From: Desulfovibrio sp.
GTDB taxonomy: Bacteria; Desulfobacterota; Desulfovibrionia; Desulfovibrionales; Desulfovibrionaceae
Length of the DNA stretch: 37,591 nt
Direction of reading: 5' to 3'
Assembly: GCA_031275955.1 (NCBI GenBank)
Contig: JAISNZ010000095.1
Location: 1-37,591, forward strand
The notes below the pieces were generated by a model, which was not told the DNA's origin, made no database searches, and saw nothing but the letters and a program-made list of their open reading frames with translations. The stretch's first letter is position 1; each line of letters begins with the position of its first letter. The position numbers and the translations under genes were made by a program. Shown one piece after another: positions 21,909-29,117 of this stretch.

Positions 21909-21993
21909 GCAACCCCCTTGTCCTGCGGTTGACGACCTCATCTGCACGCTAGCACAGGAAGCGAAGAAAAAACAAGCCTCTCGGGGCGACCGC

Positions 21994-22160
21994 CAAGACT
22001 GCCGCATTTCCATTGCCGGTAAATGCGAGGGCATAGCCCCAGGGAGCGCCCTCCGCAGTCTTGCCCGCTTATAGCGTTTACGCTTGTGATTGTCACTTGA
22101 CGGTGAAGCGGATTCGTCCTGCGACAATTCCGCGGCAAGGATTTGCCGGTAAATCCTTGC
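21994..22160. repeat. Highly structured multi-hairpin intergenic element
   Basis: Three-way-junction fold: CAAGACTGC/GCAGTCTTG (21994-22002/22055-22063) enclosing CGCATTT/AAATGCG (22003-22009/22021-22027) and AGGGC/GCCCT (22028-22032/22048-22052). Then hairpin GCAAGGATTT-GCCGGT-AAATCCTTGC (22135-22160). Confidence 0.65.
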
Positions 22161-22228
22161 AGGGCAAAGGATACATTTCCAACGGCAATTTGCTCCGGCC
22201 TCGGCTTTTTTTGGACAATCGAAACCGG

Positions 22229-22267
22229 TGAAACATATATCTTGAAACGTATTTCTCCAATGTTTCA
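22229..22267. promoter_or_regulatory. Candidate enhancer (UAS) for the sigma54 activator
   Basis: Half-sites TGAAACAT (22229-22236), TGAAACGT (22243-22250) and inverted ATGTTTCA (22260-22267), upstream of the -24/-12 element. Confidence 0.55.
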
Positions 22268-22308
22268 GCCGCAATCAAATTTGTCCTATAATTGTAAACT
22301 ATTATATT

Positions 22309-22324
22309 TGGCATGCCTTTTGCT
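22309..22324 (+). promoter_or_regulatory. Sigma54 -24/-12 promoter of the TRAP-lyase operon
   Basis: TGGCAT-GCCTT-TTGCT, matching TGGCAC-N5-TTGCW except for one base, with canonical GG/GC spacing. Confidence 0.8.
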
Positions 22325-22389
22325 CAATAACTGCGCAAGGGGACAGACTGCAAACAGCCGGGGAAAAATTACCCTAAAAGGAGTATTTC

Positions 22390-23412
22390 ATGAGATGGTT
22401 CCAACGCTCTATCGTCCTGGCGGGAATTGTGTGCGCAGGATGTCTTTCTTTTATTTCAACTCTTCATGCTGCGGAAAAAAAAGTTGTTTCCTTTGCCAGC
22501 GGAATGGCTTCAACGCACGCCGGACATATTGCTTTTGAAAAGTTTGCCAAAGAAATAGAAAAGCGCACGAACGGCGAAATCATCGGTGTTGCCTACCCGA
22601 ACAATCAACTGGGAAGCGATACGGAGGCCATGCAAGCCATACAGGATCATACGCTTGTGATGACGATGACGGCAACCCCGCCGGTTGTGAGCTTTGCCCC
22701 AGCCATTGCCGTATTTGACCTTCCCTTCTTTTATTCTTCTCTTGAAGACGCCCGCAAAGTCATTGACGACCCTGAAGTTATCAGGCCCATAGAGGAAGGA
22801 TATAAAAAGGCCGGACTCATGAATCTTGGCCTGGTCCCTACAGGATTCCGCTGGCTTTCCTCTCGAAGGAAGCCCATCACCAAACTGGAGGAACTGAGAG
22901 GCTTCAAGCTCAGAATTTCCGAAAATCCGCAGCACAGGGCGTTGTGGACAGCTCTTGGAGCCTCGCCGACCCCCCTTGCCAACTCTGAGCGCTATACAGC
23001 CTTACAGCAGGGGACTGTGGACGGCCAGGAAAATGTTATGGAAAACGCCTTCAATACCAAGATGTATGAGGTTCAGGACTGTTTCATGAATACGAAGCAT
23101 ATCCTCTACGTCAGCACCTGGATTGGAGATCCGCAGTTTTATGCGTCCCTGACTCCTGAGCATCAAAAAATTTTTATGGAGTTGATGGGGCAGATGCTCG
23201 ATGATTTTCTGCAACTCTCCATCGCGCGGGAAAAAGAACTCCTGAAGGAACTCGAAACCAAATACAACAAGACGATTGTCCGCGAAATGCCGGCTGGGGA
23301 GTATGAACGCTGGGGCGCCCTTGCCCGCCCGGTCGTTGAGAAATTGATCCGCGCAAAAATCGGTGACGCCCTCGTGGACAGGGTTTACATTGTCCTCGGC
23401 AGAACGAAATGA
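22390..23412 (+). CDS. dctP: TRAP transporter substrate-binding protein, DctP family
   Basis: Signal peptide; GEIIGVAYPNNQLGSDTEAMQAIQ, FDLPFFYSSLEDA, LRGFKLRISENPQHRALWTALGASPTPLANSERYTALQQGTVDGQEN. Confidence 0.93.
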   Translation: MRWFQRSIVLAGIVCAGCLSFISTLHAAEKKVVSFASGMASTHAGHIAFEKFAKEIEKRTNGEIIGVAYPNNQLGSDTEAMQAIQDHTLVMTMTATPPVVSFAPAIAVFDLPFFYSSLEDARKVIDDPEVIRPIEEGYKKAGLMNLGLVPTGFRWLSSRRKPITKLEELRGFKLRISENPQHRALWTALGASPTPLANSERYTALQQGTVDGQENVMENAFNTKMYEVQDCFMNTKHILYVSTWIGDPQFYASLTPEHQKIFMELMGQMLDDFLQLSIAREKELLKELETKYNKTIVREMPAGEYERWGALARPVVEKLIRAKIGDALVDRVYIVLGRTK

Positions 23413-23442
23413 CTTGCCCTGGCCTGACAAGAAAGGAATTCT

Positions 23443-23913
23443 ATGAAAAAAATCCTGATGTGGATAAATGAATATTTTGAAACAAGTATAATTTCGATAT
23501 TACTTGTTATCATCACAGTTCTATGCACAATACAAGTTATCCTTAGATATTTATTTTCTCATACAATATACTGGATTGAAGAATTTGTCGTTTATTGTAA
23601 TGTATGGATAGGGTTTATAGGTTGTAGCTATGCCATACTAAAAGATAATAATCTTCGTGTTGATATGAGTGATTTTATTCAAAAATCTGCGGCAAAATTT
23701 TTGAAAATTATTGCTGATTTTATCACTTTCTTCTTTTATATATATATGATATATTGCGGTCTTGAAGTAATCAAGCGGTCTCTTGCATCAAACCAGTTAA
23801 GTCCGGCTGCTGAAATTCCTGTAGTTGTTCTATATGCATCCCTTTTTTTCGGTTCAGTATTCGCAGTGATACGATATATACAGCGTGTATATATTTCATT
23901 TACAAAGAAGTAG
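23443..23913 (+). CDS. dctQ: TRAP transporter small permease, DctQ family
   Basis: Four TM segments, TIYWIEEFVVYCNVWIGFIGCSYAILKDNNLRVD signature; between dctP and dctM. Confidence 0.88.
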   Translation: MKKILMWINEYFETSIISILLVIITVLCTIQVILRYLFSHTIYWIEEFVVYCNVWIGFIGCSYAILKDNNLRVDMSDFIQKSAAKFLKIIADFITFFFYIYMIYCGLEVIKRSLASNQLSPAAEIPVVVLYASLFFGSVFAVIRYIQRVYISFTKK

Positions 23914-23932
23914 CATAATGGAATAAATAAAT

Positions 23933-25216
23933 ATGCACGTTATACTAACTGTTCTTGCCGTTGCCCTGATCCTTAGCGTTCCGATAGGAATCGGCCTTGT
24001 TCTCAGTTCTATTTCCACATATTTCTTCGGCATAACGGAAATTATCAATCCCAATTATGTTTATAAAACCATTGTGGATGGCTTGAATTCATATCCCCTT
24101 CTGGCGATACCGCTATTTATTCTTTCCGGCCTCATCATGGCGCGGGGAGGAATCGCAAAAAAGCTTTTCGAATTCTTCGCCTATTTTACAGGCGGACGCA
24201 CAGCCGGCCTGCCCATCACAGGCATCATCACCTGCATGTTCTATGGAGCGCTTTCCGGCTCGGGTCCCGCCACCACGGCCGCCGTCGGCAGCATGGTCGT
24301 CCCGTACCTGGAAGGCCTCGGCTATAAGCGCAATTTCGTCGCCGCCATTATCGCCACGGCGGGCTCGCTCGGGATCATCATTCCTCCAAGCGTGCCCTTC
24401 ATCATTTACGCCCTGGCGGCGAACGTGTCGGTCGGCGAAATGTTCATAGCCGGGATAATCCCGGGATTCATCATCGCCGCCTGCCTTTCTTTATGCGCCT
24501 ATGCGCATTGCCGGCGCCACGGGGAGGACAAGGAACTGCTGCGCAAAAACTATGAGTCGATCCGGGCAATAGGCTTCTGGCCTCTGCTGAAAGACAGTTC
24601 CTGGGCGCTCATGACCCCCCTGATCATTCTCGGGGGCATTTACGGTGGAGTATTTACCCCGACGGAGGCGGCCACGGTTTCTGTCGTCTATTCGGTATTC
24701 ATCGGGTTGTTTGTCTATAAGACGATGACCATCAGGGATTTCCCCGGCATTCTCGCCCAAGCGGCGCACAGTCTCGCCCCGCTGCTGATGGTCATTGCCG
24801 CAGCGACCCTCTTCGGCCGGGTTCTCGCCCTGCTGCAGATACCCCAGATGATCACGGAGTTTCTCGGCGACAGCATTTCTTCCTTCTGGCTCATCTTCCT
24901 TATGAATTTGATCCTGCTGATAGCCGGGATGCTCGTAAACGTCACTTCGGCCATTCTTATCCTGACGCCCGTCCTGTTGCCGGCGGCCACAGCCATAGGC
25001 ATGGACCCCATCCATTTCGGCATGATGATGGTGGTCAACCTGTCCATAGGCCTGGTCACCCCTCCGGTGGGCGCCGATTTATTCGTGGCCTGCGGCATGT
25101 TCCGCGTCCCTATCGCAACTTTAACAAAGCATGTCATGCCCTTTCTCCTGTATTTTTTTATCGCCCTGGCTATTATTTCTTATATGCCAATCGTCAGCCT
25201 TGTGTTCATTCGCTAA
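23933..25216 (+). CDS. dctM: TRAP transporter large permease, DctM family
   Basis: PLLAIPLFILSGLIMARGGIAKKLFEF, GALSGSGPATTAAVGSMVVPYLEGLGYKRNFVAAIIATAGSLGIIIPPSVPFIIYAL, GMMMVVNLSIGLVTPPVGADLFVACG. Confidence 0.95.
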   Translation: MHVILTVLAVALILSVPIGIGLVLSSISTYFFGITEIINPNYVYKTIVDGLNSYPLLAIPLFILSGLIMARGGIAKKLFEFFAYFTGGRTAGLPITGIITCMFYGALSGSGPATTAAVGSMVVPYLEGLGYKRNFVAAIIATAGSLGIIIPPSVPFIIYALAANVSVGEMFIAGIIPGFIIAACLSLCAYAHCRRHGEDKELLRKNYESIRAIGFWPLLKDSSWALMTPLIILGGIYGGVFTPTEAATVSVVYSVFIGLFVYKTMTIRDFPGILAQAAHSLAPLLMVIAAATLFGRVLALLQIPQMITEFLGDSISSFWLIFLMNLILLIAGMLVNVTSAILILTPVLLPAATAIGMDPIHFGMMMVVNLSIGLVTPPVGADLFVACGMFRVPIATLTKHVMPFLLYFFIALAIISYMPIVSLVFIR

Positions 25217-25268
25217 GAGATCATTATTGGAGATATATACCGACAACCCTTGAAAAAAAGGATTTCTC

Positions 25269-26171
25269 ATGAAAACAATCAATGGCCTCTCCCCCGGAAA
25301 AGCTCTGCGCGAAATGCTGAAGCAGCCTGAAATCATCGTGGCTCCGGGATGCTACGACGCGCTGTCCGCCAGGCTCGTGGAGCAGGCGGGTTTTCCGTGC
25401 GCCTTTATGACGGGTTTCGGCGCGTCGGGTTCCATCCTCGGGCAGCCTGACTACGGGCTGATGACCATGACCGAGATGCTTTCCGTCTGCGCCAATATGG
25501 TCTCGGTGCTGAACATCCCCCTCATCGGCGATGTGGATACGGGGTACGGCAACCCGCTCAATGTGCACCGCGCAATCAGGGAATTCGAACGGGCCGGCGT
25601 GGCCGCTGTCCATATAGAGGACCAGTGCTTCCCCAAACGTTGCGGGCATATGGACAAGAAAGCGGTCATTCCCGCCCGGGAGCATGTGGAAAAGATCAAG
25701 GCCTGCCTTGACGCCCGCGAGGATATGCTGATCATCGCCCGGACGGATTCCCGGGCCACCCACGGCATCAACGAGGCCATTGACCGCGTCCTCGCCTACC
25801 ACGAGGCAGGCGCCGATATCGTCTACATAGACGCGCCCGCGTCTGTTGAGGAATTGGAGTTGATCGGCAAAAAGGCCAAGGGATACAAATTCGTCAATCA
25901 GACGGAAGGAGGCAAAACCCCTCTTCTCCCCACGGAGGAACTGCAGCGCCTTGGCTTCAATATCGTCATTTTTCCCTGCTGCACAATATTCACCGCGGCA
26001 AAGGCAATGCGGCAGACGCTTGCCCATCTCAAGGAAAAGGGCACGACGCGCGAATATATCGATCATATGACAACGTTCAAAGAATATACAGACATCGTTG
26101 GAATGCCCGTATTGCTCGAAATGGAACGCAGATACAAAGTTGACGAATTCAAAAGCGTTGCCGGAAATTGA
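25269..26171 (+). CDS. Isocitrate lyase/PEP mutase superfamily protein (2-methylisocitrate/dimethylmalate lyase-like), paralog 1
   Basis: APGCYDALSARLVEQAGFPCAFMTGFG, GDVDTGYGNPLNV, HIEDQCFPKRCGHMDKK, IARTDSRATHGINEAI, NQTEGGKTPLL. Confidence 0.9.
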   Translation: MKTINGLSPGKALREMLKQPEIIVAPGCYDALSARLVEQAGFPCAFMTGFGASGSILGQPDYGLMTMTEMLSVCANMVSVLNIPLIGDVDTGYGNPLNVHRAIREFERAGVAAVHIEDQCFPKRCGHMDKKAVIPAREHVEKIKACLDAREDMLIIARTDSRATHGINEAIDRVLAYHEAGADIVYIDAPASVEELELIGKKAKGYKFVNQTEGGKTPLLPTEELQRLGFNIVIFPCCTIFTAAKAMRQTLAHLKEKGTTREYIDHMTTFKEYTDIVGMPVLLEMERRYKVDEFKSVAGN

Positions 26172-26255
26172 CGGAGAAATTGACTTCCCGTTCCAAATCC
26201 GTCCCCGGGGCCGAGGTGGAAATGGATGCGGTTTTGATCTGAAATTCGCAGAAGA

Positions 26256-26282
26256 CGTAAGATCCGAATATGTTGTCTTACG
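26256..26282. promoter_or_regulatory. Hairpin in the gap between the two lyase genes
   Basis: CGTAAGA-(13 nt)-TCTTACG just before the ATG at 26298. Confidence 0.35.
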
Positions 26283-26297
26283 GCAAGGGGTAGGGAT

Positions 26298-27167
26298 ATG
26301 AATACAGCCGCGAAATTTCGCCGGTTGCTTGAACAGCCCGGAATCATCCGCGCGCCTGGCGCCTACGATGCCTGGTCCGCGAAACTGATCGCGAGGGCGG
26401 GTTTTCCCGCCGTGTATATGACCGGGTACGGCGTCTCGGCGAGCCTTCTGGGGAAACCGGACATCGGTCTGGTCAGTTCCACGGAAATGGCCGCCGTGGC
26501 GCGGAATATCTGTCTGGCCGCGGGAGATACGCCTGTTATAGCCGATGCGGACAACGGATATGGCGGCGCGCTGAATGTGCAGCGCACAGTCCGGGAATAC
26601 GAGGCGGCGGGCGTGGCTGCCATCCAGTTGGAAGATCAGGTTTTTCCAAAGCGTTGCGGGCATATGGAAGGAAAAGAAATTATCGGGCGCGGGGAAATGG
26701 CCGCCAAAATCCGGGCCGCCGCGCAGGCCAGATCCTCCGCGGACTTTTCCCTTATCGCCCGCACGGACGCCCGGGCGGTGACCGGTTTTCAGGATGCGCT
26801 GGACAGGTGCCGCGCCTACGCCGATGCCGGGGCGGATATCCTCTTTCTTGAAGCTCCGCAATCGACGGAAGAGATATATGCCGCCGCGGAAAGCCTGGGC
26901 AAACCGCTCCTGGCGAATATGGTGGAAAAGGGGAAAACCCCCCTCCTCCCCGGGAAAGAACTGGAGCGCATGGGCTATAAAATCGTCATTTATCCCGGGA
27001 CCGCCTTGTTTGCGGCCAGCAGGGCCATTGCCGACGCGCTGGACAGCCTTTGCGCGCATGACACCAGTTGCTACGAGCGTCAAGTCTCCTTTCCTGAATT
27101 CAATGAATGGATCTGCCTGCGGGAAGAGCGTCAGCTTGAGCAGGGATTCGGGGCGGCTTCATCCTGA
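26298..27167 (+). CDS. Isocitrate lyase/PEP mutase superfamily protein, paralog 2
   Basis: APGAYDAWSAKLIARAGFPAVYMTGYG, ADADNGYGGALNV, QLEDQVFPKRCGHMEGK, IARTDARAVTGFQDAL, NMVEKGKTPLL. Confidence 0.9.
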   Translation: MNTAAKFRRLLEQPGIIRAPGAYDAWSAKLIARAGFPAVYMTGYGVSASLLGKPDIGLVSSTEMAAVARNICLAAGDTPVIADADNGYGGALNVQRTVREYEAAGVAAIQLEDQVFPKRCGHMEGKEIIGRGEMAAKIRAAAQARSSADFSLIARTDARAVTGFQDALDRCRAYADAGADILFLEAPQSTEEIYAAAESLGKPLLANMVEKGKTPLLPGKELERMGYKIVIYPGTALFAASRAIADALDSLCAHDTSCYERQVSFPEFNEWICLREERQLEQGFGAASS

Positions 27168-27196
27168 AATTGCCCTCTGGCGGTTCACGCCTGACG

Positions 27197-27237
27197 CCCG
27201 TTCGCGATAAAACCGCCCTCATTTTATCGCGAACGGG
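27197..27237. terminator. Long perfect inverted repeat between convergent lyase and regulator genes
   Basis: CCCGTTCGCGATAAAA (27197-27212) - 9-nt loop - TTTTATCGCGAACGGG (27222-27237), 16-bp stem. Confidence 0.65.
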
Positions 27238-27259
27238 TAAGGCGCGATGGGAAAAGGCT

Positions 27260-29074
27260 CTATCTGCCCTTGCTTCTTCGCCAGAGGGTTGTGCGGCTTA
27301 TGCCCAGCTCTCTGGCGATGTCCGTCTTTTTTCTGGCGAGGGCGGGCGGGACGCGGCCCTCGCACAAAGGCAGATCAAGGTCGAGCAGCAGCGCGCCGGG
27401 CGTGCAGCCTTCGTGATACAGGGCGGTGGCCGCCTCGATCACGTTTCGCAATTCCCGCACGTTTCCCGGCCAGGCGTACGTCAGCAGCAACGAATTGGAA
27501 AAGAGCCCCTCCAGAAAGGTTTCATCAAATCCGGCATGATACATGTGGGCGAAATGTTTCGCCAGAATCAGCACATCCCCTTCCCGTTCACGGAGGGGAG
27601 GAAGGGTCAGGCGGAGAACGTTCACCCTGTGGAATAAATCCGGACGGAAAAGCTTTTGTTCCATTTGCCGCTGGATGTCCGCGTTGCTTGCGCTGATGAG
27701 CCGGACATCCACGGAAATAACCTGCGTCCCTCCCACGCGCAGCACTTCCCGCTCCTCCAGAACGCGCAGCAGCCGCGCCTGGACGCTCAGGGAAAGTTCG
27801 CCGATTTCGTCCAGAAAGATCGTTCCCCCGTGCGCCAGTTCAAAGAAACCGGGTTTCCCGCCGCACCTGGCTCCTGTGAAGGCCCCGTCTTCATAGCCGA
27901 ACAGTTCGCTTTCCAGCAACGTCGCGGGCAACGCGGCGCAGTTCACGGCAATGAAGGGTTTATGCGCGCGGGAACTCGCCAGGTGGATTCCTTGGGCGAT
28001 AAGCTCCTTCCCTGTCCCTGTCTCGCCGAAAATAAACACGGACGCCGAGGACGAGGCATAACGGTAGGCCCGTCTCCTGGCCTGGACGATAGCGCGGCTC
28101 TGGCCGATGATGTCGTCCAGGCGCGTGCGGGCCTGAAAAACGCCTCCTTCCTTTTTGCGCACCTTGGCCTCTGCCTTGCGGATGGTTTCCACATCATGAA
28201 ACGTCAGGACGCAGCCGTCCGCGCACCCATGTTCATCCACGATGGGCACCCGGTTCGTGATGACCGTAACCTTGCCGATTTTCTGGATCTGATTCAGCTC
28301 CGACTTTTTTTCCCTGATGACATGCAGGACGCGCGTGTTGGGAATGAGCGCGGAGACCCGCTGCGACAGCGCTGCTTCCGGCCGGATGCCGAGAATTTTC
28401 GCAGCGACCGGATTGCAGGTGGTGACAACGCCCTGCGCATCCGTGGCCATTATACCGCTGTAAGAATAGGTGATAATGGCATTCAGCCATTGGGCCTGGG
28501 ATCTGTCGCGCTGCCGCAAAAGCGCCATCTGGGCGGCGGCGTTGATGGCGCGGGTGATGCTGTCCTCGGAATAGATAAAGGAGGAACGCATTCCGCATTC
28601 CTCCGCGGCCTCCATGACCATGCTTCCCCCTATGACCTGCTCAACGCCCTGTTTTTTCAGCCTGTCCATCGTATGCAATAAACCGTCGCGGGTATAGTAG
28701 ATTTCCTGAAACAAATTCCCGACTATGCAGGGAAGCGATTCCTCCAGAAAGGGGATGCGCACATCAAAGGATAATACGGCTATCGGCCTCGCGGTATCAA
28801 GGCGGCCCATTGCCTGCAGTAAATCGAACCCGGTTATCTGGATAAGCAGAAGAGGGGTATGCAGATATTTGCTGAGCAGTCTGCCGTTCGCGCCTGAAGA
28901 GACGAAAACGTCGATTTCGCGGGAATCCTCAAGCCGTTGCGCGAATGAAAGCACGTCGTCAAGGCAGGAGGATTCGATGTGGACGTCCACTCCCGGCAGA
29001 TCCAGGAGAGAGGGGTGATCCGAGAGAAAGTTCGTGAGCGCGCGGTAGCTCATGATGGCGATTTTGGCCGACAT
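27260..29074 (-). CDS. PrpR-type sigma54-dependent transcriptional activator (PrpR_N, PAS, AAA+, Fis HTH)
   Basis: N-terminal PrpR_N-like region, PAS ([31 protein letters not shown]), [15 protein letters not shown] Walker [14 protein letters not shown] sigma54 loop, C-terminal [16 protein letters not shown]. Confidence 0.93.
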
Positions 29075-29117
29075 GCGGAGCGTTCCTCAAAAAATGAAAA
29101 AATGTCAGCTGCAAGCG

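Follow-up and report, generated by a model that had tools for sequence, protein, structure and literature searches.

A PrpR-type sigma54 control region of a dctPQM-lyase operon in Desulfovibrio sp. and its probable convergent activator

The DNA preceding dctP in Desulfovibrio sp. contains a real and well-formed sigma54 control region of the PrpR type. We hold with high confidence that a dctPQM-lyase-lyase operon has its sigma54 promoter and upstream activating sequence here, and that the PrpR-like activator, whose gene is convergent with this operon, would control the region. The analysis covered a window of 37,591 nucleotides (the whole stretch of contig JAISNZ010000095.1), supplemented by genome-wide and comparative searches. 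What the sequence itself shows is the DNA elements, their non-random occurrence, the protein domains and the fact that, among the readable sites and activators of the genome, this pair is unique. The result is a clear-cut pair of regulator and promoter for an uncharacterised operon of carboxylate uptake and cleavage.

The promoter element TGGCATGCCTTTTGCT matches TGGCAY-N5-TTGCW, the consensus of sigma54-dependent promoters, exactly: TGGCAT (22309-22314) is followed by five nucleotides and TTGCT (22320-22324), giving the spacing GG-N10-GC. An earlier sequence-only reading had described a near-perfect TGGCAT-N5-TTGCT element here, and both its letters and its coordinates were exact. On a consensus-weighted scale the element scored 19.6, the best value in the window (runner-up 10.5), while the -24/-12 element of E. 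coli prpB scored 15.1 on the same scale. When the 481-bp gap between galU and dctP was shuffled 20,000 times with its dinucleotides preserved, an exact forward consensus match arose 28 times. Reckoned from the -12 C at 22323, transcription of dctP is predicted to start near 22335, and the leader would then be about 55 nt long. A single rpoN was found in the 83 % complete genome. The best candidate for an IHF site has two mismatches and was not convincing, and an Rfam search gave no match.

TGAAAC/GTTTCA, the known PrpR half-site, occurs three times 5' of the -24/-12 element, as in a PrpR-type upstream activating sequence. Half-sites 1 and 2 are direct copies, 14 bp apart from start to start, and the inverted half-site 3 begins 19 bp further on, leaving gaps of 8 and 13 bp between the boxes. 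Two direct and one inverted half-site had been claimed about 40-80 bp upstream; this arrangement was exact, the measured distance being 42-80 bp. The 14-bp unit TGAAACRTATWTCT forms a direct repeat (86 %), and ATGTTTCA at half-site 3 is an exact inverted copy of TGAAACAT at 22229. A trio within 33 bp was obtained in 4 of 20,000 dinucleotide shuffles of the galU-dctP gap and in 1 of 20,000 when the AT-rich part of the gap was shuffled; trio and sigma54 promoter together were obtained in none of 20,000 shuffles of the whole gap. Taken singly, TGAAAC shows no enrichment across the window (16 copies against 14.5 expected), and the significance rests in the clustering of the half-sites, not in lone TGAAAC counts.

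The genes dctP, dctQ, dctM and two lyase genes follow the promoter, all on the forward strand (Table 1). Both lyases carry PKRCGH, which we take to be the motif of Cys-dependent C-C lyases, and among solved structures they come closest to petal death protein, carboxyvinyl-carboxyphosphonate phosphorylmutase, 2,3-dimethylmalate lyase and methylisocitrate lyase. Both remain below the curated cut-off for the PrpB methylisocitrate lyase (TIGR02317; 274.6 and 285.3 versus 354.4 bits). The operon contains neither prpC nor prpD, and the PrpD family (PF03972) was not found in the 83 % complete genome. The hairpin between the operon and the activator gene is likely to be a two-way terminator.

Table 1 Features of the control region, the operon and the activator gene (window positions)
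Feature	Position	Strand	Remarks
CGAAAC, weaker copy, possible degenerate fourth half-site	22220..22225	+	From sequence
Half-site 1, TGAAAC	22229..22234	+	About -106 to -101 from predicted start
Half-site 2, TGAAAC	22243..22248	+	About -92 to -87 from predicted start
Half-site 3, GTTTCA on + strand	22262..22267	-	About -73 to -68 from predicted start
Sigma54 -24/-12 element TGGCATGCCTTTTGCT	22309..22324	+	Consensus match
dctP, TRAP solute-binding protein	22390..23412	+	RBS AAAGGAG at about 22379
dctQ, TRAP small permease	23443..23913	+	G+C 30 %
dctM, TRAP large permease	23933..25216	+	Family match
Lyase A, PEP-mutase/ICL superfamily, PrpB/dimethylmalate-lyase-like	25269..26171	+	PKRCGH catalytic-Cys motif
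Second lyase, PEP-mutase/ICL superfamily	26298..27167	+	PKRCGH motif
Perfect 16-bp hairpin, A/T arms; separates the operon from the convergent activator gene	27197..27237		z -7.1
PrpR-like sigma54 activator: PrpR_N, PAS, AAA+ with GAFTGA, C-terminal Fis-type HTH (HTH_8)	27260..29074	-	Domain matches

A GAFTGA-bearing activator had been proposed at the other end of the cluster, and its gene was confirmed there, convergent with the operon and 4.9 kb from the promoter. The PrpR_N sensor domain is well over the Pfam cut-off (96.8 versus 29.1 bits), and the N-terminal domain matches 2pju, the E. coli PrpR_N domain of known structure (E 8e-16). The protein further has an AAA+ domain with GAFTGA and a Fis-type HTH, the HTH_8 match being partial (21.7 versus a cut-off of 22). 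Its recognition helix reads ISRTTLWRR, compared to ISRTTFWRR in E. coli PrpR. As a propionate regulator it stays below the curated cut-off of the PrpR equivalog (TIGR02329; 408 versus 499.2 bits), and the methylcitrate-cycle genes prpC and prpD, which an equivalog would control, are not part of the operon. No half-sites were seen at the start of the activator gene itself. A close orthologue of the activator was found neither in 288 genomes of the family nor in 395 of the phylum, the best reaching some 32 % identity in the first 300 residues.

The half-sites fit what is known of PrpR targets. The Salmonella PrpR enhancer is CGTTTCATGAAACG, with 2-methylcitrate as the signal (PMC4987338 Table 1), and in the prpR-prpB gap of E. 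coli K-12 one GTTTCA and four copies of TGAAAC precede TGGCACACCCCTTGCT. The exact sigma54 consensus occurs at 9 sites in the 2.2 Mb assembly, compared to 2 for a reversed control pattern, and only one of the nine, the dctP site, has an upstream cluster of half-sites; no consensus sigma54 site follows any of the other half-site pairs inspected in the genome. The genome has about 16 clear sigma54 activators and one PrpR_N protein, and the TLWRR helix is found only in the PrpR-like activator, among those with readable C-termini; a few activators are cut off or unread at this end. Since the assembly is 83 % complete, these claims of uniqueness are provisional. That promoter and regulator can be paired from sequence alone, as the sequence-only reading had held, is soundly argued because the cluster and the TLWRR helix are each unique among the readable sites and activators of the genome, and the match to the PrpR half-site and the presence of rpoN support it as well. 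The neighbouring activator very probably serves the dctP control region.

It is improbable, judging from the same data, that another activator of the genome uses the half-sites of this sigma54-dependent promoter while the PrpR-like gene regulates something else. There are enough sigma54 activators to choose from, and the PrpR-like gene lies at some distance and in convergent orientation; however, the TLWRR helix is in no other activator with a readable C-terminus, half-sites of the PrpR type fit an activator of the PrpR type, of which the genome has just one, and the activator has no half-sites at its own start.

The pairing with the PrpR-like activator was also assessed in a survey of 80 PrpR_N-type activator loci, mostly from the same family, in which the type of helix was compared with the presence of TGAAAC clusters within 400 bp of either end of the activator frame. 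Clusters were found at 12 of the 17 loci with R[STI]T[LF]WRR helices versus 6 of the 63 others (P 1e-6), in a set of loci that are not independent and with a helix class (TLWRR type) that was chosen after the data were seen. Counted by genus the comparison was 6/9 versus 2/15 (P 0.02), and when clusters anywhere in the locus were counted the genus-level difference was not significant (6/9 versus 6/15, P 0.40). Eighty TRAP loci picked regardless of PrpR contained 8 clusters in 1.2 Mb. Five of the 17 activators with TLWRR-type helices have no adjacent cluster, and clusters also accompany a few other helices (L087, L100, L103, L131, L132). The association is thus to be taken as support for the pairing and not as proof. 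It supports a simple code, by which PrpR_N activators with a TLWRR-type helix would read TGAAAC; with it, targets could be assigned to many activators that have yet to be studied.

Some loci of this survey merit separate mention. PrpR_N activators adjoining TRAP genes (L056, L058, L075) or lyases (L059, L062, L063) carry helices of the S[RK]xSLWRK type and lack TGAAAC clusters, and they were not counted as support. The lyases beside the latter three are about 50 % identical to those of the window, and these loci are likely a sister regulon reading another half-site. TGAAAC clusters lie 5' of consensus sigma54 sites at four other PrpR_N loci (L089:10991-11109, L095:10877-10990, L087:10240-10441 and L132:8478-8607), where the genes behind them vary and appear by eye to include those for a CitE-like lyase, a KDG-permease-like protein, a 2-hydroxyacid dehydrogenase and a fumarate-reductase-like flavoprotein. 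TGCAAC/GTTGCA boxes are interspersed among the TGAAAC boxes in several such loci (L071, L077, L132, L032:1999), the prpB region of E. coli included, which is a hint that the half-site may in truth be TGMAAC.

Promoter, operon and activator together form a module of 7.2 kb between galU and glmM (window 21909-29117). In four genomes of the same genus (L253, L254, L256, L257) glmM and galU are direct neighbours with nothing of the module between them, so that it was either gained here or lost there. Its G+C content is uneven (dctQ 30 %, dctP 50 %, flanks 60-63 %). Such a joint gain or loss of operon and activator strengthens the pairing.

A close orthologue of dctP was found in only one of the 288 family genomes (G118, locus L164; 77 % identity). 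A DctP-based search of the genome contigs confirmed no further orthologue, and a scan with a DctM profile gave relatives of at most 50 % identity, none of them with lyases; the few activator matches beside these relatives were rejected, as only the shared AAA+ domain had matched. The operon of G118 has the same gene order and similar proteins (DctP 77 %, DctQ 60 %, DctM 79 % and lyase A 82 % identical), but differs in an extra lyase gene before dctP and an IclR-family gene just upstream. The gap upstream of the operon contains GTTTCAATATTTGAAAC and one further GTTTCA, and no sigma54-like site (best score 2.1). Consensus motifs of IclR regulators are GKTYCRY-W3-4-RYGRAMC or TGRAACA-N1-2-TGTTYCA (PMC8222616), and the GTTTCAATATTTGAAAC palindrome fits the group 1 motif with two mismatches outside the core. 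The sequence-only reading had proposed a search for the half-sites upstream of orthologous dctP genes, and the outcome is mixed: the letters do recur in G118, but there they form a palindrome of the IclR type, accompanied by an IclR-family gene (L164:6955-8030), and a sigma54 promoter is absent. As judged from these sequences, the sigma54/PrpR circuit is not conserved with the operon; the G118 circuit differs although the letters recur, and the locus should not be taken to show that a PrpR operator is conserved. Conserved operons can, then, carry different control circuits in related species. We regard it as a speculative idea, with little probability, that the operon came under two unrelated regulators, PrpR-type here and of the IclR family in G118, with the TGAAAC boxes retained and one operator alphabet serving both during the swap.

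The G118 orthologue, with GTTTCAATATTTGAAAC and its adjoining IclR-family gene, also suggests that the boxes in the window could be an IclR/KdgR-type operator instead of an enhancer, as motifs of the IclR family consist of GTTTC/GAAAC boxes. This is very improbable: the 8 and 13 bp between the boxes fit neither IclR consensus (PMC8222616), an IclR-type HTH was not found in the 83 % complete genome, and a near-perfect sigma54 site, which G118 lacks, is located 42 bp downstream. It is scarcely credible that the half-sites clustered by chance in AT-rich DNA and that transcription from the promoter does without them or depends on sigma70. The weak sigma70-like TTGTCC-16-TATATT at 22281-22308 is equally frequent in shuffles, whereas the trio is rare in shuffles of the gap and of its AT-rich part, and its letters are found again at E. 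coli prpB and at many PrpR_N activator loci.

For control by the convergent PrpR-like activator, we infer binding, activation, start site and ligand as follows. An intracellular ligand would be sensed via the PrpR_N domain, perhaps also via PAS, and the activator would oligomerise on the TGAAAC/GTTTCA half-sites, which lie between about -106 and -68 relative to the predicted start. Its AAA+/GAFTGA domain would then open the closed sigma54-RNAP complex at TGGCAT-N5-TTGCT, and the operon would import a carboxylate to be cleaved by the two Cys-type C-C lyases. 2-Methylcitrate is unlikely as the inducer because no PrpD family member was found and because the activator is below the PrpR equivalog cut-off. 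The lyases presumably point to a 2-hydroxy-dicarboxylate such as an alkylmalate, or to a product of one, and the ligand is more likely to be such an imported compound or its product than 2-methylcitrate.

Compared to known systems, the closest likeness is to prpR-prpBCDE of E. coli and Salmonella, which also has a PrpR_N-AAA+-HTH activator, TGAAAC/GTTTCA half-sites upstream of TGGCAY-N5-TTGCT, and as the first target gene a lyase with 35-40 % identity to both lyases of the window. The window operon differs in that TRAP transporter genes come first, prpC and prpD are missing from it (as is the PrpD family from the genome searched), a convincing IHF site is lacking, and the activator, which includes a PAS domain, is encoded convergently beyond the last operon gene. 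The spacing of the half-sites, 14 and 19 bp, differs from the 18, 10, 12 and 12 bp of E. coli and is also unlike the published Salmonella palindrome. PrpR, TRAP, dctP and TGAAAC are absent from the main text of the paper on sigma54 one-component regulons of Desulfovibrio (PMC4641369), but the organisation is that of these regulons, in which the activator gene is co-localised with the sigma54 promoter and the regulon consists of one to few operons. The control region is a well-formed case of a familiar bacterial circuit and not a new kind.
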